This document shows positions 6,500 through 36,873 of a stretch of 48,401 bases of DNA, piece after piece. Origin of the DNA: Candidatus Nitrotoga sp. HW29 (GTDB lineage Bacteria; Pseudomonadota; Gammaproteobacteria; Burkholderiales; Gallionellaceae); the NCBI RefSeq assembly GCF_924101635.2, contig NZ_CAKMAA020000092.1, forward strand, positions 1 through 48,401, written 5' to 3'. The translations under genes were made by a program, and so were the position numbers. The notes beneath the pieces were generated by a model. That model had not been told where the DNA came from, searched no databases, and was given only the letters and a program-made list of their open reading frames with translations. Position 1 is the stretch's first letter. Each line of letters starts with the position of its first letter.

Positions 6500-6880
6500 A
6501 TGCAAAGAACTATGCTCAAAGCCAAATTGCATCGAGTGCATGTGACGCATTCGGAATTGCATTATGAAGGCTCGTGTGCAATCGACGAAGATTTATTGGA
6601 TACCGCTGATATCCGTGAATACCAGCAGATCGATATTTATAATGTCACCAATGGTGAGCGTTTCACCACCTATGCCATCCGCGCACAACGCGGTTCTGGC
6701 GTCATTTCAGTGAATGGTGCAGCGGCACATAAGGCCAACCCAGGCGACATTTTAATCATCGCCACTTACGCAATGTATACCGAACTGGAATTGCAGAAAT
6801 TTCACCCCCAATTGGTGTATGTGGATGAGCGCAATCGTATCATTGCCCAACGTAATGAAATTTCAGTACAGGCAGCGTAG
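6500..6880 (+). CDS. panD: Aspartate 1-decarboxylase precursor
   Basis: This is a 126-residue pyruvoyl enzyme that makes beta-alanine from L-aspartate for pantothenate. The self-cleavage site lies in HYEGSCAID, between Gly24 and Ser25; Ser25 becomes the pyruvoyl group. The lysine in KLHRVHVTH, the YNVTNGERF strand and the VNGAAAH motif complete the active site. Length and cleavage position match the E. coli enzyme as I recall it. The start at 6500 follows a TAGGGGGTA ribosome-binding site. The proenzyme appears intact. panB, panC and panD together give the whole route to pantothenate except ketopantoate reductase. Confidence 0.97.
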
Positions 6881-6952: not shown

Positions 6953-9811
6953 TCAGTTGAAATTATTCAGTGAATTTGGCGTTGTCAAAGATGGTGTAAT
7001 TGCAGAATGCTCTTGATTGAGCTGATAGCTCACGGCTTGCTTGGTGAGCAAGCTGAGCGGGGGTGGCAGCCGATGGTCGTTGTGTTCTTGCTGCAGGCTG
7101 CGGGACATGCCGCTTACCCCAATAATCTCGCAAATTTTGTCGGCCATATCCAATTGCGCCGGAGTCATTTCATCGTTACGAGGTGCTGAATAGCGGGTTT
7201 CACCACTCAGGTACATATCAACTTCGTTAGCAAGCGCGATCATCTGTACTTCGGCATCAGAAATAGTAATTCGATCGGCATCCGTTAGTATGGCCTGACT
7301 TTTCGGTGATTTCATTCCTCTGAGTGTATAGCTCCTGACCAGACGCTCCACCTTGTTTCCCTCGCCACCGAGTTTACTGCATATATCTTCGCGCGCTGCC
7401 TGCTTGCCTTCTGGATGTGCCGGGCAATGGGTGTATGCCGCGTGTAGCAGCCCGGCCATTACGACTTCAATCCGAAAGTCATAGCGCAGGAGCACGCTGG
7501 CGGTACCTGCCAGGTGGTTAATGAAGGGTCGGCCACATGAGCGGTATCTGCCCGTCATGAGTGCCTGTGCAGTGAAATAGGCAGTGCTTAGCAAGCTAAT
7601 TTCTGCGGCTTGATAGCCGTGGTCTATGGCCATATCCAGCAGGCCTGAACGGGTCTGCTGTAGCTCCTCTTTACGCATAGTAGTATTCCACTCCTGGCGC
7701 GGAGGGATATTTGCCCTGAGCGGATCGATATGACCAACATGCTTGCTCAGAAAAGTACGCAATACGCCAAAGGAACGCTGATCGTTGCAGACGCCCCATT
7801 TTTTTGCAAAATGCAGAATGCATTGTTCGCCCGCTTCACGCGACCAGCGCAACCTGAAAATGGGAAGATCCCCTAGCAGAAAATCGGCGAAAGCAAGGTA
7901 GTTCACGCGCGATGCAGGTTCCATGTAAGTAGAGTAACCCAGCCGCTTAGCCGCAAGTGAAACATCGACATGATCGTTGACAGAGATGATTTTGTCGTCG
8001 AGCAGGCCATGTTCCAGCAGAAGCCGTGTACGAACCAGCATGCAGTGGTATTCAACAAAATCCCAGGGCTTCCTGAAAAGCTGTTCAGGCACGTCCTCTG
8101 GCCGGTGATTGATAAGCAGATGCTCCAATTCCATGACAAGTCCATCACTGCAGACGTCATGGTAAAAATTAATCCTGCCGCCCGCCATGTGAATTTTTGG
8201 AACAGATTTGCCGTCGCTCCAGAGGTACAAAGGCCCCACAATACCGGCCCCTGTCTCATCAGCGCAGGCGATTAACTTTTCCAACCAGCCCGGTTCAACC
8301 TCAACGTCGTTGTCGATGAATACGGTGTATTCAGACGATATGCGATCCAGAGTTTTTATTCTGGCTTGATTAGGCCAGAGGGAATCTTCGGTATCCACCA
8401 ATTCAATTCCGTATTGGTGGGCCAGCGTTTCAAGTTGCTTACGGATCCAGATTGGTGACTGGTAGTCCACAAAAATGAGGCGGAAAATGGGGGGTGTATT
8501 GGACAGAATAGACTTCAAGGATTGGATTGTCAGACTGTAACGTTCCCGTATCGTCATGACGATCGTAACGCGAGCGTTTAGATTGGCCTTAACCATGGCG
8601 GGCTCTTGATTTGGCCGGATAGCTCCGCAACATTCCTTAAAGCGGTGCCCACTGCCGCATGGGCACGGCGCCAGTCGCCCCGGTTGTTGAACACCCGTAG
8701 CGGCAGATTGAGCGGGAGGTGTTGCCCGGGCAGTGACCGGCAGGCGTCGGGCGAGTGCATCGGCTGCCGCCTGAAATGTCGGATTGATTCCCGCTTGTCG
8801 GGCAAAAGCAAGTGCTTCTTCGTATTTATGGGATGCCTCTAGAATGAGTGCCATGGTCATACGAAACTCATCGACTGATGGATTGATTTCGATTGCCCGC
8901 CGAACCAATTTTTCTGCTGTAGCCAGTTGACCTTCGTGAAGATCCAGTCGGGCGAGTCCATGTAAAGCGCTGGGATCGTCCGGGTACGCTACAAGTGTTT
9001 TACTGAATAAGGTTCGGGAAAGTGCAAAATTTCCGTCATGGAAGGCGCGAACTGCCCCCATGCACATCTCAACCAAGCGGCGGGTGTGAAAGGATGATGC
9101 GCCGGACCATTTTAATCGCAAAATATTTTCCGAACGTTCGAGGCGAGATACATCCCGGGTGGCTGCGGAACCCGTGCCCGAGGTGCCTAGGTAAGGATGA
9201 TAATTGAATCCTACAACTGGAACGAACACAAAATCGGAGTGCTCTGCAATTTGATTCAAAAAATCGCGATCCTCGCAAATTTCAAGTGTTTCATCAAAGC
9301 GGCAGCCCAATTCAATGACTTTGCTGCGGATAATCGCTGACTGCCAATAAAACAGCGGCCCGAAGTACATCAATGCGCGGTTGAACGGGCTGCCAAACAA
9401 TTTTTCGACTTTCCCGTTTTCATCAAATATTCTGGTTCGACCGTAAACTAATAGCGCTTCGGGATGGGCATGGGAGGCGCTCAACATGGCCGAAAGGAAA
9501 TCAAAATCATACGTGTCGTCATCGTCCAGAAAGCAGAGCCACTCCCCATTTACGGCTTGCAATCCTTCGTTGGCGGCTTGGGGTCGTGGCAAACGGCGAT
9601 GACCGCCAACGATTCGTATCGAATGGCCGGATTGCCAGGTTATAGCCGGCAGCGCCGGGTGGCTTCCACCCGTTGCATCGACTACGATGACCTCAACGTT
9701 TGGATAATCCTGCCGTGCGATCGACTCCAGCGCCAAGCGAAGTTCTGGTCGTCCCATGCTGCGCACGATGACAGATACTAGTGGTAGCGTCGGTTGATTG
9801 TCAGGATACAT
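6953..9811 (-). CDS. GT2-TPR-SEC-C-GT2-HD multidomain glycosyltransferase
   Basis: This 952-residue protein joins five modules. Residues 10-245 are a GT-A family 2 glycosyltransferase, with VSVIVRS, the VVDATGG strand and acidic FLDDDDT (95-100). Residues about 250-350 are helical, TPR-like repeats. CPCGSGHRFKECC (383-395) is a textbook SEC-C zinc knuckle. Residues 413-690 are a second GT2 domain, with VTIVMTIRERYSL and FIDNDVEV (DND at 500-502). The C-terminal part, about 720-905, resembles HD/RelA-SpoT-like or DUF6817 domains: a histidine in PFINHLAGTASVL and AGLLHAAY, then a basic stretch. No signal peptide or membrane helix is visible, so it is probably cytoplasmic. GT2 enzymes transfer sugars from nucleotide sugars; target and sugar are unknown. 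The gene stands alone between panD and mgtE, and an IS end lies only 13 bases upstream of its ATG. Confidence 0.85.
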   Translation of the reverse strand: MYPDNQPTLPLVSVIVRSMGRPELRLALESIARQDYPNVEVIVVDATGGSHPALPAITWQSGHSIRIVGGHRRLPRPQAANEGLQAVNGEWLCFLDDDDTYDFDFLSAMLSASHAHPEALLVYGRTRIFDENGKVEKLFGSPFNRALMYFGPLFYWQSAIIRSKVIELGCRFDETLEICEDRDFLNQIAEHSDFVFVPVVGFNYHPYLGTSGTGSAATRDVSRLERSENILRLKWSGASSFHTRRLVEMCMGAVRAFHDGNFALSRTLFSKTLVAYPDDPSALHGLARLDLHEGQLATAEKLVRRAIEINPSVDEFRMTMALILEASHKYEEALAFARQAGINPTFQAAADALARRLPVTARATPPAQSAATGVQQPGRLAPCPCGSGHRFKECCGAIRPNQEPAMVKANLNARVTIVMTIRERYSLTIQSLKSILSNTPPIFRLIFVDYQSPIWIRKQLETLAHQYGIELVDTEDSLWPNQARIKTLDRISSEYTVFIDNDVEVEPGWLEKLIACADETGAGIVGPLYLWSDGKSVPKIHMAGGRINFYHDVCSDGLVMELEHLLINHRPEDVPEQLFRKPWDFVEYHCMLVRTRLLLEHGLLDDKIISVNDHVDVSLAAKRLGYSTYMEPASRVNYLAFADFLLGDLPIFRLRWSREAGEQCILHFAKKWGVCNDQRSFGVLRTFLSKHVGHIDPLRANIPPRQEWNTTMRKEELQQTRSGLLDMAIDHGYQAAEISLLSTAYFTAQALMTGRYRSCGRPFINHLAGTASVLLRYDFRIEVVMAGLLHAAYTHCPAHPEGKQAAREDICSKLGGEGNKVERLVRSYTLRGMKSPKSQAILTDADRITISDAEVQMIALANEVDMYLSGETRYSAPRNDEMTPAQLDMADKICEIIGVSGMSRSLQQEHNDHRLPPPLSLLTKQAVSYQLNQEHSAITPSLTTPNSLNNFN

Positions 9812-9956: not shown

Positions 9957-11411
9957 TTAATGGATTAAAAATAGAGCAGCGAGTCCAAGGAAAATGAAGA
10001 AACCGCCGCTGTCTGTAATGGCGGTAAGCATTACACTGGAACCGATGGCCGGGTCGCGTCCCATACGCTGCATGGAGAGCGGTATCAGTAAACCAGCCAA
10101 TGCGCCAAGGACCAAATTGAGCACCATGGCGCCAGTTAAAATCACGCCCAGCAGCACACTTTTATACAGGAAATACGCGAATAATCCGGCGACACCACCC
10201 CAAATCAAGCCGTTCAGGGCGGCGATGGTAAGCTCTTTACCGATTAGTCGCTTTGCATTAGCTTGGTTAAGCTGCCCCAAAGCCAGCGAGCGGATGATGA
10301 TAGTAGCGGTTTGGTTTGCCGAGTTGCCGGCGATACCTGCCACGATAGGCATGAGTGCCGCGAGTGCGACAAGTTTTTCGATGGTATTTTCGAATTCGCC
10401 TATCACGCGTGAGGCAAAGAATGCAGTACATAGATTGAGCGCCAGCCACATCCAGCGATTTTTTACGCTCTTCCAGACCGAAGCAAAGATATCTTCTTCT
10501 CCACGCAAACCGGCTGTATTCAAAATGTCGCTTTCCGATTCTGAACGTATATAGTCCATTACCGTGTTCACGGTCACGCGACCAACCAGCTTACCATCCT
10601 CTTCCACCACAGGTGCTGAAACCAAATCATAACGCTCAAATGCTTGTGCTGCCTTTTCCGCCTTGTCATCCGAATGCAATTTGATGGTATCGGTCAACAT
10701 CAGTTTGCTTACGGTTACGTCCGGTTCGTTCACCAATAGACGATTAAGCGGTAAGACACCCTTAAAAATATCGTCTCTGTCCACGACGAATAGCTGGTCA
10801 GTATGATCGGGCATTTCGTCGAAACGGCGCAGATAACGCGATACGACTTCCAGCGTGACATGCTCGCGAATAGTGACCATGTCGAAATCCATCAGCGCGC
10901 CTACCGCATCTTCCGGATAGGACATCGCCGCACGCAATTGCTCACGTTCTTCAATGGTGAGCGATTTAAATACATCGCGTATTACCGCATGCGGCAAATC
11001 ATGCGCCAAATCGGCAATCTCGTCGGTATCCAGCTGCTCTGCAGCTTCGCGCAGTTCCTCGCGACTCATGGTGGCGATCAATGATTCACGTACTGAATCG
11101 GAAACCTCGATCAAGATTTCGCCGTCACAATCAGCCTTGACCAGATCCCATACCAGTAAACGCTGCTCAATGGGCAGGGCCTCCAAGATAAAAGCGATAT
11201 CAGAGGAATGTAGTTTGCTCAGCTTATCTTGCAGCTCGGCCAGATGCTGCTTGTGCAGTATGTTGTCCAACAACTCGTGACGTTCCTGGCGCGGTATTTC
11301 CTGCTTGCGTGCCAGCATTTCGACCAGCTCGTGCTTGTCCAACAGGCTTTGCACCTGATGCAGATGCTCCTGCACGTTTTCTGTGTAATGAGGCTCGTGG
11401 TTTTTGGTCAT
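9957..11411 (-). CDS. mgtE: Magnesium transporter MgtE
   Basis: This 484-residue inner-membrane magnesium channel consists of a helical N domain (about 20-145) and paired CBS domains (about 145-270) that sense cytoplasmic magnesium. About five transmembrane helices follow (about 310-484). Seen in the pore domain are ALMPIVAGIAGNSANQT and, near the end, TAITDSGGFFIFLG, which holds the conserved pore aspartate. The length is usual for the family. It is divergent from sucC across a 514-base spacer and does not appear to share an operon with the glycosyltransferase downstream. Some mgtE genes are riboswitch-controlled, but I could not recognise an M-box in the leader. Confidence 0.96.
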   Translation of the reverse strand: MTKNHEPHYTENVQEHLHQVQSLLDKHELVEMLARKQEIPRQERHELLDNILHKQHLAELQDKLSKLHSSDIAFILEALPIEQRLLVWDLVKADCDGEILIEVSDSVRESLIATMSREELREAAEQLDTDEIADLAHDLPHAVIRDVFKSLTIEEREQLRAAMSYPEDAVGALMDFDMVTIREHVTLEVVSRYLRRFDEMPDHTDQLFVVDRDDIFKGVLPLNRLLVNEPDVTVSKLMLTDTIKLHSDDKAEKAAQAFERYDLVSAPVVEEDGKLVGRVTVNTVMDYIRSESESDILNTAGLRGEEDIFASVWKSVKNRWMWLALNLCTAFFASRVIGEFENTIEKLVALAALMPIVAGIAGNSANQTATIIIRSLALGQLNQANAKRLIGKELTIAALNGLIWGGVAGLFAYFLYKSVLLGVILTGAMVLNLVLGALAGLLIPLSMQRMGRDPAIGSSVMLTAITDSGGFFIFLGLAALFLIH

Positions 11412-14161: not shown

Positions 14162-15169
14162 ATGATTTTAGTAACAGGTGGGACCGGTTATATCGGCTCG
14201 CATACGGTTGTTGAGCTGATGCTGGCTGGATTCGAGATTTTGATTGTTGACAATTTTTGTAACAGCAAGGCAACGGTTCTTGATCGTATGGAGCGTATTG
14301 TTGGGCGCCGACCGGGATTTATAGAGGCGGATATTCGTGATCGGCAAGCGATGCAAACCCTCTTTGCAGGGCATTATTTTGATGCGGTAATCCATTTTGC
14401 TGGTTTGAAAGCGGTAGGCGAATCGGTGGCTCAACCGTTACGCTACTATGATAATAATGTTTGTGGCAGTTTGGTATTGTTTGAGATGATGGCCGAAGCA
14501 CAGGTAAAAACGCTGGTTTTTTCTTCTTCTGCTACAGTTTACGGTGATCCTGCGACCGTTCCAATTCTGGAGAGTTTTCCGCTTGGTGCGACCAATCCAT
14601 ATGGCAGAAGCAAGCTGATGGTCGAAGAGGTGCTCCGTGATCTTGCGATAGCTGATCCTTCATGGCGCATAGCGTTGCTTCGCTATTTTAACCCTGTGGG
14701 CGCGCATGAAAGCGGATTGATAGGCGAGGATCCTGCGGACATTCCGAATAATTTGCTTCCTTACATTGTCCAAGTAGCACAAGGTCGGCGCAAGGAACTA
14801 TCGATTTATGGTGATGATTATCCAACCATTGATGGTACTGGTATGAGAGATTATATTCATGTCGTTGATCTTGCTATTGGCCATGTCAAGACTTTGGAAA
14901 AACTGGCTGATCAGACGGGAGTCGTTACCTATAATTTGGGCACGGGGCGGAGTAATAGCGTTTTGGAGATGGTGCGCGCATTCGAGCAAGCCAGTGGACG
15001 GAACATACCCTACAAAATAGTGGGGCGTCGCTCCGGGGATGTTGCTACTTGTTACGCAGACACTACGCTAGCGGAACGTGATCTGGGTTGGAAAGCTGAG
15101 CGAACTATAGCGCAGATGTGTGCTGACTCTTGGAGATGGCAGTCTTCAGGAAACCACGGTAAACTTTAA
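14162..15169 (+). CDS. galE: UDP-glucose 4-epimerase
   Basis: This 335-residue short-chain dehydrogenase/reductase-type enzyme interconverts UDP-glucose and UDP-galactose using tightly bound NAD. It shows the Rossmann motif TGGTGYIGSH (5-14), FAGLKAVGES (79-88), SSSATVYGDP (121-130) with the catalytic Ser/Thr, and Tyr147-x3-Lys151 in NPYGRSK. The substrate-loop LLRYFNPVGAHESGLIGEDP also fits GalE. The ATG at 14162 follows an AAGGAAGAAG ribosome-binding site. It stands alone after sucD. UDP-galactose would supply surface polysaccharide or glycosylation, so a link to the glycosyltransferase at 6953-9811 is possible but not shown. Confidence 0.95.
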   Translation: MILVTGGTGYIGSHTVVELMLAGFEILIVDNFCNSKATVLDRMERIVGRRPGFIEADIRDRQAMQTLFAGHYFDAVIHFAGLKAVGESVAQPLRYYDNNVCGSLVLFEMMAEAQVKTLVFSSSATVYGDPATVPILESFPLGATNPYGRSKLMVEEVLRDLAIADPSWRIALLRYFNPVGAHESGLIGEDPADIPNNLLPYIVQVAQGRRKELSIYGDDYPTIDGTGMRDYIHVVDLAIGHVKTLEKLADQTGVVTYNLGTGRSNSVLEMVRAFEQASGRNIPYKIVGRRSGDVATCYADTTLAERDLGWKAERTIAQMCADSWRWQSSGNHGKL

Positions 15170-28304: not shown

Positions 28305-29984
28305 TTAGGTAGAACCCGCAGCTTCTACTGCAGGCGCATCCGACAGTACCACCTGATTGCGTCCGGTATGCTTGGCATTATAAAGAGCCTTGTCTGACGC
28401 CTCAATTAACTCGGTAACATCACGAAACTGAGATATGTCAGCGATTCCACAACTAAACGTAACGGTAAACTCTTTTCTATCTGATAAATAACGCAATTGA
28501 GAGAAGTCCTTACGAATAGTATCCAGCACTTGCAATGCCGTCGCTCTATCGGCATTTACCAGGATTACCGCAAATTCTTCGCCTCCATATCGTCCCACCA
28601 AGTCACTCGCGCGCAACCGCTGTTTAAGCAAACGTGCAAGGCTTTTAATTACACGATCCCCAATAGGATGACCATAGGTGTCATTAATCTGTTTGAAGTG
28701 ATCAATATCAATCATCGCAAAGGCTAAGGATGTTCCATGTCGTTTTGATCTGATAACTTCACGGTCCAATTCATCTTTTATAGCAGTGTGATTGAACAAT
28801 CCGGTCAAACTATCGCGTAGCACGAGGGAACGCAAAATAAGCGAACGTCGAATACGGCTATTCACGGAAGAAATCAGGTGTTGCGGTAGTATGGGTTTGG
28901 CAAGAAAATCGTCACCACCCAAACTCATAGCGACCAACTGCTTGTCGAGATCAATTTCTGCCGAAAGAAATACAATCGGAATGCTGACAAAAGCATCAAG
29001 TTGTCGAATGACCTTGGCTAAATCCATCCCGCTACATTTCGGCATATAAAGATCGATCAAGATCAGATCGGGAGCAAACTCAAGTAAAGTTTTAATCACG
29101 TTAAGCGGGTTGTGAACTACCATTGACACCATTCCAGCCTGTTCCAGCACTTCGCTGTAATAGGTAGAAATATCTACCGAATCATCAATAATCATGACAC
29201 GGTACGGCAACGTTGTTAAAGTCGACGTCAGGGCATCGAGTTTATCAATTAGTTTGCTGATATTTAGCGGTTTATTCAGATAGGCAATACCACCGGCGCG
29301 TGCCGCTTCAAGTCGTATCAAAAATTCATCGTTCGCAGAGATAAAAATCACAGGGAGGGGTGTTTCTCGTCCTGCCTGAATTTCTTTTACGACCTCCACC
29401 CCACCCAAACTATTATCTGGGAAAGAAATATCCGTTAGTATTACCACGTCAACAGTTTGCTGCATGGCAACTCTGAAATCCGTCAGCGTATGAAATACCG
29501 TGACTTCATAGCCAAAGTAGCCGAGTTGAACTTTCAGTTCTTCTGCCTGTTCGAGATCATCCTCCAATAAAAAAATACGACGAGGACTAAGCGCATCGTA
29601 GTTGGGTGGCGCAATTGCGATTGAATCAGCCTGGTTATTAAACAAAGCCTCCCGGTAAATAGCGACTTGACGTAACTCACTCATCAATTTTTGTATATGC
29701 TGACGCTGGTCTTCGCTCAATACTGTTTCTGTCTGAACAATCTGCCTTAAATGCTCTTCCAGATTGCGTGCTACATCACTGAGTAAAGCAAAGCCGAAGG
29801 TTTTTCCTGATCCGGTCAAACTATGCACCATGCGATGCAAGGTTTGAAATCCCTCTGCATCCCAATTATCCTGAGGTAATTGCGCCCACATCTGCTCGAT
29901 ATGTTTGAGCTTTTCAGGCAATTGCGCGGCATAGACGTCGCATAGGCGTTCTAACTTTGCTTGTAGCATGCTCGGATTAGTCAT
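28305..29984 (-). CDS. Hpt-REC-REC-GGDEF response regulator (diguanylate cyclase)
   Basis: This 559-residue cytoplasmic protein has an N-terminal histidine phosphotransfer domain with His54 in MVHSLTGSG. It is followed by a receiver with Asp185 (VVILTDISFPD), a second receiver with Asp311 (LILIDLYMP), and a GGDEF domain (about 385-548) with GGEEF at 467-471. The latter is a catalytically allowed variant. An inhibitory-site RxxD (Arg458-Asp461) lies just before it. It should make cyclic di-GMP under phosphorelay control. An Hpt and two receivers in one polypeptide suggest that it can pass phosphate internally. Its start overlaps the stop of the stand-alone receiver gene by eight bases. The likely input is the hybrid kinase two genes upstream. 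Confidence 0.93.
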   Translation of the reverse strand: MTNPSMLQAKLERLCDVYAAQLPEKLKHIEQMWAQLPQDNWDAEGFQTLHRMVHSLTGSGKTFGFALLSDVARNLEEHLRQIVQTETVLSEDQRQHIQKLMSELRQVAIYREALFNNQADSIAIAPPNYDALSPRRIFLLEDDLEQAEELKVQLGYFGYEVTVFHTLTDFRVAMQQTVDVVILTDISFPDNSLGGVEVVKEIQAGRETPLPVIFISANDEFLIRLEAARAGGIAYLNKPLNISKLIDKLDALTSTLTTLPYRVMIIDDSVDISTYYSEVLEQAGMVSMVVHNPLNVIKTLLEFAPDLILIDLYMPKCSGMDLAKVIRQLDAFVSIPIVFLSAEIDLDKQLVAMSLGGDDFLAKPILPQHLISSVNSRIRRSLILRSLVLRDSLTGLFNHTAIKDELDREVIRSKRHGTSLAFAMIDIDHFKQINDTYGHPIGDRVIKSLARLLKQRLRASDLVGRYGGEEFAVILVNADRATALQVLDTIRKDFSQLRYLSDRKEFTVTFSCGIADISQFRDVTELIEASDKALYNAKHTGRNQVVLSDAPAVEAAGST

Positions 29985-30366
29985 GATAGCGCTCCCATAT
30001 CTCCTGCACCCTGCTTGCCAGCTTCATCGGATTGAAAGGCTTGGGAATGACATCGATTACCCCAAGCTCCTTGTAGCCTGCAACCTCACCGGGTTGAACC
30101 TTGGCAGTCATAAAAATTACCGGTGTGCGGGCAAATTGGGGCAGGGCACGCAATATTTTGAGCGTACTTGGCCCATTCATACCCGGCATCATTACATCCA
30201 GCAAAAATAGCTGGGGTTGAAACCCTGGTGCCAGTTGCAAAGCCTCATCACCCGAACTGCATATCGCCACGGTATATCCACCCAGCGCTTCCAAGGCGAG
30301 CCGCGCCACCATCTGGATATCCGGCTCATCTTCCACGTACAAAATACGCACCAACTTGTCTACCAT
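29977..30366 (-). CDS. Single-domain response regulator
   Basis: This 129-residue protein is a bare receiver: acidic pair in YVEDEPD (11-17), phospho-acceptor Asp57 in LFLLDVMMPGMNG, Thr in VIFMTAK and the Lys in VIPKPF. It lacks any output domain, so it would act as a shuttle or interact with another protein. It sits between the hybrid kinase and the Hpt-REC-REC-GGDEF protein, overlapping the latter by eight bases. Its start overlaps the stop of the decayed receiver just upstream by one base. Confidence 0.93.
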   Translation of the reverse strand: MVDKLVRILYVEDEPDIQMVARLALEALGGYTVAICSSGDEALQLAPGFQPQLFLLDVMMPGMNGPSTLKILRALPQFARTPVIFMTAKVQPGEVAGYKELGVIDVIPKPFNPMKLASRVQEIWERYHD

Positions 30367-30566
30367 TACGATCTCTTTTTCTTAAGACATGTCGCTATCT
30401 TGTCCAAGACGCTGGCAGGATTAAGTGGCTTGATCATAAAATCAGTCGCTTCTTTTTTTATCACCGCAGATACTTTATCCATATTTACTCTGGTCGTTGG
30501 ATACGTCGTTCATAACTATTGCCATTATTTCGCCACTATTACCGGAATTTTCCTAATTTCACCATG
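30366..30566 (-). pseudogene. Decayed receiver domain
   Basis: Three frames in turn match a receiver C-terminal half: GEIRKIPVIVAK right after the kinase stop, then AIVMNDVSNDQSKYG, then KKEATDFMIKPLNPASVLDKIATCL with the conserved KP pair, ending at the TAA beside the next gene. At least two frameshifts and the loss of the N-terminal half (no phospho-acceptor) make it a pseudogene. A 37-residue open frame starting with MDKVSAV could still be translated. Confidence 0.6.
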
Positions 30567-33476
30567 CTATTCAATCCCGATCAATCGTTTTATGGTTACC
30601 AGCAATTGCGCATCGCTGGTACGCGATTTCACCATCAGGGAAGCCACGTTTTGTATTTTTTCCCGCTCAACCTCCCGGGCTGAAAATACCATCACCGGAA
30701 TCGGTGGCGTTGCACCATTCAATAGGGGTAGAAGCTCCTGGCCTGAACCGTCGGGTAAGGTGAGATCGAGGATTACCAGGTCGTAACGGCACTGCTTAAG
30801 CAAGTGCTTCGCCTCGGCAAGTATGCCCGCATGGTCAAGATCCGCCATATCGCCTATGAGACCATGCATCACTTTAAACATATCAGGATCGTCTTCGACA
30901 TGCAGTACTCGAGGACGGATGCCGGAAAACCGCCCCACTGCGCGTCTTATCGCTAACACCATCTGCTCTTTGTCGATCGGCTTGGGGATCCAGTCGATTA
31001 TACTGTACGCTTCGCCATCCAATTCCAGACTACCCGCCACCGCCCTGGCCGAAACGACTACGATCGGTAATTTGGCGGTTTTTTCCTCCATGCGCAACTC
31101 ACGGATAAACGCGATACCGTCCTGGCCAGGCAGCGACAAATCAAGCGTCATGGCTGCATAATAACTCTGTGACAGCATGAGCTTTGCCTGTCCGGTATCG
31201 TAGGCGACATCAGCCACGAATCCATCTTGTTCCAGCATAAAGTGTAGCAACGCGGCGATGAGGCGATCGTCCTCGCAAATGAGGATTCGTTTGCTTTTTT
31301 CTCCAGCCTTGCCCGAAGAAAAATCAGCTATCTCTGCCTGTATCGGAAATTCGACAAAAAAAGTGGTCAACACATTGGGTTCTGAACTGAAACCAATCAT
31401 TCCCCCCATCTTCTCGACAATCGCCCGAGTGATGGAAAGCCCCAAGCCCGTTCCCCCTTTCTTGCGGGTGTCCGATGAATCACTTTGGGCAAATTTCTGA
31501 AAAATCTGACTACGGAATGGCTCAGCAATTCCGCTGCCATGATCTTTCACCGTTACACGAACCCGGTTGTTATTGACAATAACAGCAATTATCACCTTGT
31601 CACCTGCAAACGAAAATTTGGCGGCATTGGAGAGCAAATTGGCCAGAACCTGCATCAAGCGGTTCGCATCCACGTTCACCATAATGCCCGGCACATCGTT
31701 TTCCAGTTCGTAACTCACATTGAACTGCCCCCCGTAGGCGCAGTTTGCTTCCAGCGCCTGATGTAGAAGAGGCATCAATTCAACCGGTTCGCAGTGAATA
31801 TCCATCTTGCCAGCCTCGATTTTTTCCATATCGAGAATGTCATTGACCAACAGGATCAAGCGTTCGCTATTCTTGTGCGCAATGTCCACCAGCATCTTGG
31901 CTTGCAGTGGCAGCTCTCCCGCCATCCCGCTGGTGACAAGCCCGAGCGCACCGCGGATGGAGGTAAGCGGCGTGCGCAGCTCATGACTGACGGTAGAAAT
32001 AAATTCGCTTTTCATGCATTCGATATTTTTACGCTCGGTGATGTTCTGGATAATCGCGACAAATACGGGTGGATATTCCTTAGCGGGTAAATGTAAACGG
32101 ACCTCTATGGGGTAAATACTCTTATCTTTCCGTTGATGCTCGGCCTCATAAATCACAACATCCTGCTTTCCAAGCCGCAGAAGGCTGATACGCTGCTCAA
32201 ATAGGTTATGCGTAAGATTGGGTTCGAGGTCTAACACGGTCAACCCCTTAAGTTCATCCATGGTGTAACCCAAGTTGCGCTGTGCTTCGGCGTTGACCAT
32301 GGTGAAATGCAATGTTTGCGCATCGAACACATAAATTTCGTTCGATGATTCGTCAAGAACACGTCCCAAGCGGGTCAATTCATGCTTGGCTTGCTTGCGT
32401 GAAGTGATATCGCGCGAAAGACAAATGAACCGTGGTTCCTGACCAGGCTCGGTAGGCATACGGGAAATAGACAGTTCGAACCACAGCCTGCCTTGCGGAA
32501 GTATAAGTTCGAATTGTTTGCCTTGCGAACGACCTTTTTCATTAGCCTCTAGCAATGCAGACATTCCAATCGCCGCTGCATCGGCCGGGAGAACTTCAAA
32601 TATTGTTTTACCAAGCAACTCCTCCTGGGGAGCCGCTAACAATTCAACACGCGGAGAATGATAAGAATAATAACGTCCGTCCAATCCTACCTCAAAGAGC
32701 AAGTCGGGGATCGCATCGAGCGTAGCTTGCAGCTGATTTCGTGTCGCGAGAATTTCGCGCTCATAATTTTTACGATCTGTGATTTCCCTGGCGTCACCTG
32801 CGATACGAATAATGACGCGAACAAGTAGAAACCCAACCCATAAAACGAACCCTAAACCAATGATCGCCGTAGCGATTAAAATACTGCGAATCGTTTCGTA
32901 GTGATTACGTACCTCGTCATATTCCTGCTTTGCCACGATCAATTGCAGCTTGCCGAGTGTCTTGATACCCTTTCCAACCGGCTGATAAAAGCGCTGGATA
33001 TCTTCCACGACGATTTGATTTGCTCTCTTAATGTCATTGGCCCGCAATGCGACTATCACCGGTTTCAGACCTTGTGTAACTAATTTGTTATGGTCATCGA
33101 CAAATTTTGCCGCCAGTACCTCTTCCTTGGACGTGAGGTAACTGGTCATATAAGCTTTCCATATTTTTTTGATTTCCGCGATATTTTTTTCGATTTTTAC
33201 GGTATTAAGCCTAATCACATCAGGCGTTGGCGTCACCAAACTACTCGCTATAACGAGGCGATTTTCCAATATCAACGATTCAATATCCGTTATCTGATCA
33301 AGCGCAAGGAGGCGGTCATCATAAATATTTTTCAGGCTATCTTTAGCACTGTTCATTTCACACAGAATAATCGATCCAATTCCCAGCAAGATTGCTCCCA
33401 TCAAGCAAAAATAGAAGATCAAGCGTGATTGAATGGTCAAATTTCTTATCATATTTTTCACATGGGTAAGCGACAT
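30567..33476 (-). CDS. Hybrid sensor histidine kinase (4HB-PAS-PAS-HisKA-HATPase-REC-REC)
   Basis: This is a 969-residue inner-membrane sensor. TM1 is at about 19-39 and TM2 at about 198-220; between them is a helical periplasmic four-helix-bundle domain like that of chemoreceptors. Two PAS domains (about 245-360, 370-482) precede the HisKA box with His498 in STVSHELRTPL. The ATPase domain has NLLSNAAKFS, DHGSGI and GGTGLGLSI. Two receivers follow, with Asp779 (MTLDLSLPGQDG) and Asp904 (VILDLTLPDGSG). It has all residues for autophosphorylation and internal transfer. The signal is unknown. Downstream receivers and an Hpt domain in the same direction make them its probable partners. Confidence 0.95.
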   Translation of the reverse strand: MSLTHVKNMIRNLTIQSRLIFYFCLMGAILLGIGSIILCEMNSAKDSLKNIYDDRLLALDQITDIESLILENRLVIASSLVTPTPDVIRLNTVKIEKNIAEIKKIWKAYMTSYLTSKEEVLAAKFVDDHNKLVTQGLKPVIVALRANDIKRANQIVVEDIQRFYQPVGKGIKTLGKLQLIVAKQEYDEVRNHYETIRSILIATAIIGLGFVLWVGFLLVRVIIRIAGDAREITDRKNYEREILATRNQLQATLDAIPDLLFEVGLDGRYYSYHSPRVELLAAPQEELLGKTIFEVLPADAAAIGMSALLEANEKGRSQGKQFELILPQGRLWFELSISRMPTEPGQEPRFICLSRDITSRKQAKHELTRLGRVLDESSNEIYVFDAQTLHFTMVNAEAQRNLGYTMDELKGLTVLDLEPNLTHNLFEQRISLLRLGKQDVVIYEAEHQRKDKSIYPIEVRLHLPAKEYPPVFVAIIQNITERKNIECMKSEFISTVSHELRTPLTSIRGALGLVTSGMAGELPLQAKMLVDIAHKNSERLILLVNDILDMEKIEAGKMDIHCEPVELMPLLHQALEANCAYGGQFNVSYELENDVPGIMVNVDANRLMQVLANLLSNAAKFSFAGDKVIIAVIVNNNRVRVTVKDHGSGIAEPFRSQIFQKFAQSDSSDTRKKGGTGLGLSITRAIVEKMGGMIGFSSEPNVLTTFFVEFPIQAEIADFSSGKAGEKSKRILICEDDRLIAALLHFMLEQDGFVADVAYDTGQAKLMLSQSYYAAMTLDLSLPGQDGIAFIRELRMEEKTAKLPIVVVSARAVAGSLELDGEAYSIIDWIPKPIDKEQMVLAIRRAVGRFSGIRPRVLHVEDDPDMFKVMHGLIGDMADLDHAGILAEAKHLLKQCRYDLVILDLTLPDGSGQELLPLLNGATPPIPVMVFSAREVEREKIQNVASLMVKSRTSDAQLLVTIKRLIGIE

Positions 33477-33750
33477 TATCTGGATTGCTACGGACTAAGA
33501 CTGTTGTACCTGGCTGGCCTGAAGGATTTGTTCATATGGAGAAAGCGCGCTCGCCTTGACTACCGGTCACCGACTGCATTCACGCTGCAATGTTATTAAA
33601 ATAACTCGCTGCTTATGATAACCAGTTGGACTCCACTCTACCAACCGGCTTCACGACGATATATAGTTTGGTTCAATAATTATGAGCTAACCTCAAATAT
33701 CTACCCGTTCTGCTCGTTATGACAAGAATCTACTGATCAATTATTTGGTT

Positions 33751-36700
33751 TTAATTCGCAATAAGCGAACTACTGGTTTGCAATAAAGTGGCGATTTCCT
33801 GTGCCTCCAACGGACGGTTAAAGTAGTAACCTTGACCTTCGTCGCAATCTTGGGCCAGAAGCAATTCGTACTGCTCTTGTGTTTCTATGCCCTCTGCAAT
33901 AATGCGTTTCTTGAGACTTTTACCCATGCTTATCACGGCACTGACAATAGCAGCATCGTCCGGGTTGCTGCACATCTGGTTCACGAACGACTGGTCGACC
34001 TTCAGGGTACCGATCGGAAATTGCCTTAAGTAACTCAGGCTGGAATAGCCGGTACCGAAATCATCGATTGAAAGCCTTACGCCCAAATCTGCAAGCGTAT
34101 GAAGCATAGCATCAATAGGCCCGGCGTCCTGCATGAGAACGCTTTCGGTTAATTCCAATTCCAGATAGCACGGCTCCAAGCACGTTTCTTTGAGCACCGT
34201 GCGAATATTATCCAGAAAATCCTTGGTCCGGAATTCGAGCGCGGAGGTGTTAACCGCAACAATAACAGGCGGTAGGCCAGCCCGCTGCCAAGACTGGGCT
34301 TGGAGACAAGCCTCACGCAAAACCCAGCGGCCCATTGGCAAAATTAGACCACAGTCTTCGGCGATGGCCATAAATTGATTGGGTGTCAGCTGCCCTCGTT
34401 CCGGATGCTGCCAGCGGATAAGCGCCTCGACACCAATAATTGCACCATTTTTAAGATTTATTTTGGGCTGGTAATGCAACACAAATTCTTGCCGTTCAAG
34501 TGCGTGACGCAAGCCGGTTTCAATGGATTGCCACTGGACAGCGTGATCATTCATATCCTGTTTAAAAAACTTGTAATTATTACGACCGTTTTCCTTGGCA
34601 AAATACATCGCGATATCCGCGTTCTTGATGAGGGTTTCTCCATCCTTCCCATCATCAGGATAAATACTGATCCCAATACTTCCGCTGATATGAAGATAGT
34701 GTTGATCAATGTAGTGTGGTAGCGCGAGCGCCGTCAGTATCTTTTGAGCACAGATAGCGGCATCTTCCGGATGCGTTATAGAGGGTAGGAGTAGCACAAA
34801 TTCATCGCCACCTTGACGACTAATGGTATCCGAATGACGCACACAACCTAACAAACATTGCGCAACCGATCGCAGCAGTTTGTCACCAACCGCATGTCCT
34901 AACGAGTCATTGATGTGCTTAAATTGATCGAGATCCACAAACATCACTACAATTTGCCTGCCTTGACGATAGGCCAACTCAATCACTTGGTTAAGCCGGT
35001 ACTGGAACAACATGCGGTTCGGCAAATCAGTGAGCGCATCGTGATGAGCCAAATGATCTAGCCGAACTTTAGCTGCCTCAACTGCCTCTTTTGCCAGCAC
35101 ACGCTCATGGATAATATTACCTGACGGCACAATGTAGGCCATCCGGCCATCAACATCGTGTACGGGATTAAGCGAAAAATCGATCCAAACGAGCGTATCT
35201 CCTGCTACACGTACTTGGACGTCGTAGCGGGAAGGTTCGCCGTCTGCGGCCCGGGCCATAGCTGCGCGCAGCTGTTCTCTCGCCGGTTCGGAATAAGACC
35301 ACCAAAAGGTTTGATCAAACGATTTGCCAATGACATCTTCGGCACGCAATCCAGCAGCAATGAGCCCGGAACGGTTCACTTAAATTAATATACCATTCGG
35401 AGTCATCAGCCCAAGGAATGAGTTGGAGCCGAGCCCATCGATCACTTTGCGCAGTCTCTGCTCGCTGTTGCGTACCGCTGCTTCTGCCTCTTTGCGTGCA
35501 GTCATGTCGAGCACGAAGCAAATACCTTCGTCCGGACGATCCTCGAAAATGGCTGCTCCGAGCAAAACAGGCACTCGCGAACCGTCTTTGCGGATATATT
35601 CCTTTTCGAACGGAGTACAAACGCCAGTCGCGGCGATTTCTTCAAGACCGTACCGATCCAGATGCGCGTATTCGGAGGGCGTCATTTCCGTCCAGGCAAG
35701 GCGGCCGGCCCCCAGATCCTCACGGGTGTAGTTCACGATACGGAGAAACGCATCGTTGGCTTCGAAGATTAAGCCCTTCATATTCCAAAACAGTACGCCC
35801 TGCACATTGGAATCCATAAGCCGACGCATGCGTACCTGCTCTCGTGCCACTTTTTCCGCTGCATTTCTGCGCTCAATCGTAGTCCAACAGCGTTCAACGA
35901 TATCCTGTACGAGGGTGATCTCGCTCGGCTTCCATGCGCGCGGCGTCGTTTGATGCACGATCATCATGGCGCGAAGGCTGCCGTCCTTTACGAGCGGACA
36001 AATAATCATCGCTTTGATACCGATGGTGTTGAGCATTTCCACTCCATCGCCCGGCAAAAGCTCAGCTTCCACATCACGAATAATCAAAGGTTGCCCGTTG
36101 GAGAGCATAGCCACGGCCCGCGCGCCTAAAAGTGAAAGTTGATAACTACCCACCGTGCTCGCGCAGCCATCGGTATAATCGTGCAAGATCGTGAATTGCT
36201 CACCATTTTGCTCCACATCCGCGTAGGCACAACGAGAAACGCGTAAATGTTCACCTAACCTCAACGCCATCACGGCCATAATTTGCGACGAATTGATCAG
36301 CGTACGCGTCGCTTCGATCAAATTTTTGATAAATAAAATATATTTCTCGCTTTCGCGAAGAGTTTGCTCCGTCCGTTTATACGGGGTGTTATCGGTACCG
36401 ATAAACAAATAGCCGATAATAGTGTCTTGATCATTACGTAGCGCCGTGACCGACACAATGGCCGGAAAATGGCTGCCATCCTTGCGAATGTGGGTCAGTT
36501 CGTAAATATCCTCGATACCATGCGAAGCCTTAACCACCAATGCTTCGAAACCCGGCGTGATCGGGATGCCAAGTTCGGCGCTTAAAGCCTTGGCACGCGC
36601 GATTACTTCCTGCGTATCAGAAATGTCGGCCAGAATGATCTTGTTCATGACGTCGGCGGACGTATAGCCCAGCATGCGTTCCGCACCGACATTGAAGATT

Positions 36701-36873
36701 TGAATGATGCCCTTGGCATCAGTAACAATACTCGAGAAATTGGTGCTATTAAAAACCGCGCTCTGTAGAACACCTTTTTTTAGCAAAGCTTCCTGGCGCC
36801 GAGCTTTAATCACACCTCTCCAAGTACACATGGTGCGATTTAAAATCGCAAGATCACGAATTTTTTCTGTCAA
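33751..36873 (-). pseudogene. PAS-GAF-PAS-PAS-GGDEF-EAL c-di-GMP protein interrupted by one in-frame stop
   Basis: Two open frames (36873-35380, 497 residues; 35379-33751, 542 residues) abut in the same frame with only TAA at 35382-35380 between them. The first ends ...GLMTPNGILI inside a PAS domain; the second continues it with VNRSGLIAAGLRAEDVIGKSF. Together they make about 1040 codons: PAS (about 35-165), GAF (180-335), PAS (345-465), a split PAS, GGDEF and EAL. In the second part GGDEF is intact (190-194, with RHSD inhibitory site at 181-184). EAL is complete (EALIRW, ELTES, DDFGTGYSSL, AEGIET). The start is TTG at 36873 with AGAGG upstream. The GTG right after the stop could restart translation. 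If expressed, it would make or degrade cyclic di-GMP. Confidence 0.85.

Follow-up and report, generated by a model that had tools for sequence, protein, structure and literature searches.

Results

Domain layout of the gene

The window analyzed here is a stretch of 48,401 nucleotides from Candidatus Nitrotoga sp. HW29 (contig NZ_CAKMAA020000092.1), a nitrite oxidizer whose genome is available as 2.99 Mb in 96 contigs. The gene under study occupies positions 6953–9811 of the minus strand and has 952 codons plus a stop, as read from the frame and compared with its orthologues. It encodes two GT2 glycosyltransferase cores separated by TPR helices and a SEC-C knuckle, followed by a tail of RelA/SpoT-type ancestry. 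A first-pass annotation, made from the sequence alone, had described a 952-residue frame with this content and suggested a machine for cytoplasmic protein glycosylation coupled to nucleotide signaling. The frame was confirmed (its strand, absent from that annotation, is minus), and so were all the motif positions, i.e., LDDDD at 95–99, IDNDV at 499–503, CPCGSG at 383 with CC at 394–395, NHLAGT at 765, and AGLLHAAY at 786.

The Pfam model Glycos_transf_2 (PF00535) matched the whole protein with 108.9 bits (E 3.4e-31) in two stretches. The first GT2 domain, of the GT-A type, spans residues ~10–240 (9092–9784, minus strand, as for all features of the gene), with its best stretch at 21–138, an acidic run at D96–D99, and CEDRD at 179; residues 11–273 matched 9jma in a phmmer search (E 1.7e-12). 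It is followed by TPR helices at residues ~250–355 (8747–9064), which are helical in the model and where TPR_19 (28.2 bits versus a cut-off of 25), TPR_17, and TPR_14 scored above their cut-offs between ~257 and 322, other TPR models falling below theirs. The SEC-C (SecA-like) metal knuckle CPCGSG-x4-CC lies at residues 382–396 (8624–8668) and scored 26.1 bits with PF02810 versus a cut-off of 20.4; in the orthologue P0006 the cysteines are kept and the score is 19.2. The second GT2 domain, also of the GT-A type, spans residues ~411–700 (7712–8581), carries DND at 500–502, and shares 33% identity over 264 residues with a GT2 gene at L112:13276–14364; in P0006 its PF00535 stretch is 413–537. An Asp-x-Asp motif is present in both cores (D96–D99 and D500-N-D502). 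Profiles, predicted fold, and a tree delimit a putative DUF6817-like pseudo-hydrolase domain of the RelA/SpoT-type HD kind at residues ~715–870 (7202–7669), after which the C-terminal end (residues 871–952, 6956–7201) is modeled with low confidence.

No membrane-like segment was detected across the protein (best 19-residue hydropathy mean, 1.16), and the Pfam scan found no synthetase domain in it. The whole-protein structure model contains a block at residues 11–130 with a predicted local distance difference test (pLDDT) score of 79–92 and is patchier further on. Overall, the Pfam, profile, and fold analyses placed two GT2 cores, TPR, SEC-C, and a tail with a Rel/SpoT fold in a single frame, in agreement with the first-pass annotation. 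HD_4 (PF13328) reached only 18.2 bits on the tail, under its cut-off of 27.2. Judged from these domains, the order is new and assembled from known kinds. A literature search, judged by titles and the starts of abstracts, found no paper on a GT2-TPR-SEC-C-GT2-DUF6817 architecture, which is not proof of absence.

Conservation and distribution

The possibility that an assembly error had fused two genes, raised in the first-pass annotation, was a genuine worry because residues 3–376 are repeated in the genome and two contigs (L017 and L018) of one metagenome-assembled genome (MAG) end inside that repeat. However, the same domain order was found in five full-length genes of Candidatus Nitrotoga-type genomes (the window's, L009, L010, L013, and L114), of which L114 belongs to a genome assembled as a single contig (G055). 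Identical joins in these five genes, one of them on the single-contig genome, led us to reject an assembly chimera, and with the order found in other genomes such an error is unlikely. Besides the window's, the full-length genes are those of four records (P0002, P0003, P0006, and L114), and at L011, L012, and L025, where the gene is interrupted by contig or locus ends, the visible part keeps the order. The nearest named matches came from Candidatus Nitrotoga and Nitrosomonadales MAGs (80–87% identity).

Matches to DUF6817 (PF20680) at E ≤ 0.001 were obtained in 7 of 11 genomes of the genus, own genome included, and were not found in the other four. Two of the seven genomes (G051 and G039) fall below the family cut-off, and in G039 we observed only a 218-residue tail frame (L115), which is apparently a remnant. 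At broader ranks, 8 of 60 genomes of the family, 7 of 369 of the class, and 7 of 398 of the phylum gave a match. In these three sets, no above-cut-off DUF6817 frame outside Nitrotoga was long enough for the architecture (the longest has 428 residues), and sub-cut-off matches occur in other long frames of G377 and G545.

Mean ratios of nonsynonymous to synonymous substitution rates (dN/dS, ten pairs) were 0.14 for the first GT2, 0.15 for the TPR part, 0.30 for the SEC-C linker, 0.20 for the second GT2, and 0.36 for the end of the tail, which is the least constrained part. The tail core ranged from 0.14 to 0.35 (mean 0.24, ten pairs). Judging by these ratios, the tail domain is under purifying selection.

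Ancestry of the tail domain

DUF6817 scored 26.2 bits at residues 757–829 of the window protein, barely above the cut-off of 25.2; the orthologues P0002 and P0006 scored 26.1 (above) and 20.8 (below), respectively. A profile of 27 RelA/SpoT (RSH) rows alone gave the tail 33.1 bits, the highest-scoring of 500 shuffles reaching 4.8. When seven tail sequences were made into a profile (A1), matches at E ≤ 1e-6 were obtained in 206 of the 398 genomes of the phylum and 174 of the 250 of the order, own genome counted in each, and the best phylum match after the window had E 6.2e-12. Among the A1 matches listed, most lie in RSH-sized frames, and YITHP...LLHD...ADRLH is present in most of those fetched. 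The AlphaFold model of the tail has a mean pLDDT of 76.6, and its top Foldseek matches are Rel and SpoT (E from 2.1e-4, template modeling (TM) score ~0.5 over the query). In an unrooted tree with long branches flagged, 14 rows (six Nitrotoga tails, two stand-alone relatives, and six DUF6817 proteins) split from 28 RSH rows with support of 100/98. Taken together, profiles, fold, and tree indicate that the tail shares descent with RSH hydrolase domains, grouping with DUF6817-like proteins. The SpoT-like ancestry proposed in the first-pass annotation is thus upheld by profile and fold, but the nucleotide-hydrolase role proposed with it is not, since catalytic residues have been lost.

The tail shares H...H[AS]xY with DUF6817, and in six canonical members an A[ND]..E-like motif follows later in the sequence. 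Canonical members differ in scoring 91–116 bits and in their frames of 184–428 residues, which were not scanned for other domains and are too short for the window architecture.

Viral origin or spread of the tail was considered and rejected: matches in phage records were weak, no relative was found in the viral contigs scanned with A1, and the viral fold library returned nothing at E ≤ 0.001. Specifically, the window tail as query matched six phage records, of which two carry a (p)ppGpp hydrolase annotation and four carry none, and had no plasmid match. The stand-alone relative from genome G486 (see below) had no phage match and retrieved from plasmids a (p)ppGpp synthetase of Monoglobus and two DUF6817 records of Leptospira.

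Active-site residues of the tail

The H...HD metal-binding residues singled out in the first-pass annotation are kept only in part. By motif order, in a mapping of our own, H766, H790, A791, N862, and R757 correspond to RelSeq residues 53, 77, 78, 144, and 44. On the one hand, both histidines occur in every one of the 40 aligned rows, H766 (7514–7516) being the kept equivalent of His53, and R757 aligns with Arg in 27 of 27 RSH rows. Canonical DUF6817 proteins differ here, the Arg44 equivalent being missing in five of five aligned rows. On the other hand, the Asp of the HD pair (H790–A791, 7439–7444) is Ala in all six Nitrotoga rows and Asp in 27 of 27 RSH rows, and N862 (7226–7228) stands at the place of Asp144, also Asp in 27 of 27, a pairing that hinges on how a stretch of lower identity is aligned. 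T794–H795 sit where 27 of 27 RSH rows have Glu-Asp (HDxxED), a pair which we take to be Glu81–Asp82 of RelSeq. Y793 is common to all 13 non-RSH rows.

In RelSeq, the Mn ligands are reported to be His53, His77, and Asp144, and both D78A and R44Q to abolish hydrolysis (PMC13299517). With the equivalents of D78, D144, E81, and D82 lost and D78A on its own reported to end RelSeq hydrolysis (PMC13299517), an active (p)ppGpp hydrolase was rejected. Because the Asp of HD, the distal Asp, and the Glu-Asp are gone, hydrolysis by the tail lacks a catalytic basis, as does the coupling to nucleotide signaling proposed in the first-pass annotation. A role as a nucleotide hydrolase is therefore unlikely, and a pseudo-enzyme under purifying selection, which may still bind a ligand without cleaving it, fits the sequence better. 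Lacking residues that hydrolysis requires, the tail is more likely to have a regulatory or scaffolding role in the enzyme than to cleave nucleotides. In Escherichia coli RelA, an inactive hydrolase domain is described as able to regulate (PMC8012599).

Set against RSH hydrolase domains, small alarmone hydrolases, and the inactive RelA domain, the tail is alike in fold, profile homology, and the equivalents of H53, H77, and R44, but differs in the four lost acidic residues and in its position behind glycosyltransferases. An RSH-like frame of the same genome (L132 on contig C13, 661 residues) likewise has a degenerate hydrolase site, with MHAV replacing HD and LAERT replacing ADRLH.

Stand-alone relatives and probable gene fusion

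With the tail as query, matches were obtained in 32 of 229 genomes of the class, own genome included. The two best matches beyond the own genome were in G486 (31%) and G530 (30%), with frames of 250 and 280 residues, and most others were RSH-sized. In G486, a GT2 gene is followed on the same strand by a frame that matches GT2 only weakly (16.5 bits versus a cut-off of 23.3) and then by the stand-alone tail relative. The GT2 is 33% identical over 264 residues (134 bits) to the second GT2 of the window gene, and the tail relative scores 37.2 bits with DUF6817 and 28.5 bits with HD_4, above the cut-off. Frames on the opposite strand nearby resemble what we take to be squalene/hopanoid genes, one of which matched Amino_oxidase when scanned. 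The tail relative of G530 scores 38.7 bits with DUF6817 and has asparagine synthase, polysaccharide pyruvyl transferase, and GT1/GT4-type genes in its neighborhood. A search of the order of G486, with 1 genome, and that of G530, with 20, gave no further stand-alone relatives, and in the own genome the only other listed match reaching into the second GT2 scored 18.2 bits. Because the relatives of the second GT2 and of the tail sit one gene apart in G486, the window gene appears to be a fusion that unites linked functions.

A Met at position 712 (709 in two genes) is common to the five genes compared and stands at, or at most two columns from, the starts that we chose for the two stand-alone proteins. 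AGGAG precedes its codon by twelve bases in the window gene and is absent there in the other four full-length genes. An internal start making the tail a separate protein (window:7436–7700, minus strand) is conceivable from this arrangement.

Mosaic structure of the second GT2

Comparison of DNA identity in 40-residue bins revealed a mosaic stretch with two alleles at residues 521–680 (7772–8251, minus strand), in the acceptor-side half of the second GT2. In this stretch the window gene is 91–98% identical to L010, L013, and L012, versus 72–92% in other bins; against L009 the values are 79–92% within it and 80–94% elsewhere. L011 and L010 are 95–98% identical in most flanking bins and 87–89% within the stretch, but also just 82–92% in the bins ahead of residue 441, which makes the window case the clearer one. 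Two protein alleles, VNDHVD/KPWDF and VHEHID/KPCDY, accompany the mosaic. Recombination looks to have swapped the acceptor half of the second GT2 between Nitrotoga lineages, and a mosaic in this half suggests that the glycan varies between them.

Related modules and neighboring genes

The own genome contains a GT2-TPR paralogue (L002 on contig C6) that is 78% identical to window residues 3–376 but has another end, with a NodZ match of 15.8 bits versus a cut-off of 28.3, and no SEC-C, second GT2, or tail. Across L002 and L015 the module shares 78–81% identity with the initial part of the gene and is joined to a different end with sub-cut-off NodZ; L014 and L016 also carry the module, which seems to have been shuffled within the genus. 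Frames with SEC-C-TPR-GT41, DUF5672-SEC-C-TPR-GT9, and GT2-GT2-TPR-SEC-C-GT1 orders were also observed in the own genome (L126, L129, and L131, on contigs C8, C40, and C14). Four of the seven SEC-C places in this genome, the window's included, are in TPR glycosyltransferases; of the others, one accompanies DUF5677, another an AAA domain, and the third lies in a 904-residue frame that may be SecA.

The direct neighbors are a gene at 6500–6880 (plus strand), which we take to be panD-like, and one at 9957–11411 (minus strand), presumably mgtE-like. L010 and L114 likewise have a presumed mgtE-like frame before the gene, and L009 has a frame of the same size there. A gene of the epimerase/GDP-mannose-dehydratase family lies 4.4 kb away (14162–15169). 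In L009 (8783–12727) and L114 (8994–12932), two frames of similar size follow the gene, and the window has no such frames; those of L009, when scanned, contained DUF218 in one and AMP-ligase, carrier, thioesterase, and TPR domains in the other. Further along the window (28305–36873, minus strand) is a set of signaling genes, with a GGDEF response regulator, a hybrid histidine kinase, and GGDEF-EAL and PAS-GAF frames.

Discussion

We give about an even chance to the reading that this gene encodes a soluble double GT2 glycosyltransferase of Candidatus Nitrotoga, predicted to make two sequential transfers to one cytoplasmic acceptor, with a regulatory or scaffolding DUF6817-type tail and an origin by fusion. 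The two GT2 cores would add two sugars in turn to one acceptor, protein or lipid-linked, which the TPR and SEC-C parts would hold, and the pseudo-hydrolase tail would regulate or scaffold. The gene may have originated when a GT2-TPR-SEC-C gene was joined to a GT2 gene and a DUF6817-like gene, kinds that are still separate neighbors elsewhere. With no membrane-like segment and with TPR and SEC-C parts, cytoplasmic protein glycosylation is possible; in FlmG of Caulobacter, likewise a cytoplasmic protein with TPR and glycosyltransferase in one chain, the TPR is reported to bind the substrate (PMC7591256). FlmG differs in its GT-B fold and N-terminal TPR, and the available part of the report mentions no SEC-C, second glycosyltransferase, or HD-like part (PMC7591256).

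Several results weigh against this reading. The whole-protein model is weak (mean pLDDT 59, predicted TM score 0.37), so that the domain arrangement cannot be taken from it. In the tail alignment 27 of 40 rows are RSH, which may bias the model toward the RSH fold, and the Nitrotoga tails and two stand-alone rows form one group with support of just 38/66. Beyond the canonical DUF6817 proteins two stand-alone relatives were found, only one of which adjoins a relative of the second GT2, and no glycosyltransferase is annotated within the 16 kb shown around a Leptospira DUF6817 gene. Lastly, the double-GT2 matches in the whole-model Foldseek search have TM scores of ~0.17 over the query and a root mean square deviation (rmsd) of ~24 Å. 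The top six matches of that search were to heparosan synthase 2, chondroitin polymerase ranked 12, and single-GT2 enzymes were among the matches. Since the superposition is poor and the model weak, these matches point to two GT-A cores and not to a common arrangement.

The same matches (8vh8, E 5.0e-13; 2z86, E 1.3e-10) raise the question of whether the protein is a polysaccharide polymerase of the chondroitin polymerase or heparosan synthase kind, in which the cores alternate on a two-sugar repeat and TPR, SEC-C, and pseudo-hydrolase only scaffold. Two GT-A cores in one soluble chain are what K4CP and heparosan synthase 2 also have, the exchange of the acceptor half between lineages resembles surface-glycan diversification, the epimerase/GDP-mannose-dehydratase-family gene is close, and a polysaccharide pyruvyl transferase and a GT1/GT4-type gene are found close to the tail relative of G530. 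However, the superpositions are poor (rmsd ~24 Å), and the presumed panD- and mgtE-like neighbors do not make a polysaccharide locus. Moreover, the window protein has TPR and SEC-C between its cores and a pseudo-hydrolase after them, and the GT2-TPR-SEC-C-GT2 order is not known from either enzyme, which leaves a polymerase unlikely. Coupling of a protein glycosyltransferase to export is equally doubtful in our view. Here SEC-C, which in other settings binds the ribosome, would bind the ribosome or SecB and the TPR a client, with glycosylation preceding secretion. The SecA-like metal-binding domain is reported to bind SecB in SecA (PMC8076867), FlmG offers a case of TPR-guided cytoplasmic O-glycosylation (PMC7591256), and the genome repeatedly places SEC-C in TPR glycosyltransferases, including the SEC-C-TPR-GT41 frame. 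Nevertheless, SEC-C occurs in unrelated proteins too, its linker is less constrained than the glycosyltransferase and TPR parts (dN/dS 0.30), and in one orthologue it misses its cut-off (19.2 versus 20.4).

Two other readings concern the tail itself. It might be an active enzyme with an altered site built on H766, H790, Y793, and N862/E863 and acting on a nucleotide sugar or other phosphate ester. The invariance of both histidines, Y793 in every non-RSH row, and purifying selection on the domain fit such a site, but the loss of the Asp of HD, the distal Asp, and the Glu-Asp makes it very improbable; a literature search for the name DUF6817 found no paper, hence no recorded activity there. Alternatively, the tail could be an alarmone sensor, i.e., a pseudo-hydrolase that binds (p)ppGpp or a related nucleotide and switches the double glycosyltransferase with growth state. 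This idea draws on the retained fold, two histidines, and Arg44 equivalent of the (p)ppGpp pocket, and we regard it as quite improbable. If true, one protein would connect the stringent response directly and allosterically to glycan synthesis.

Returning to the double glycosyltransferase with a regulatory or scaffolding tail, gene fusion and one neighborhood case tie DUF6817, an uncharacterized family, to glycosyltransferases, a link that draws on the fusion and one or two neighborhoods. The HD-type active site of the family appears, from the residues aligned here, to be rebuilt or dead. Should the transferases be regulated by the tail, DUF6817 proteins could be tested as regulators.

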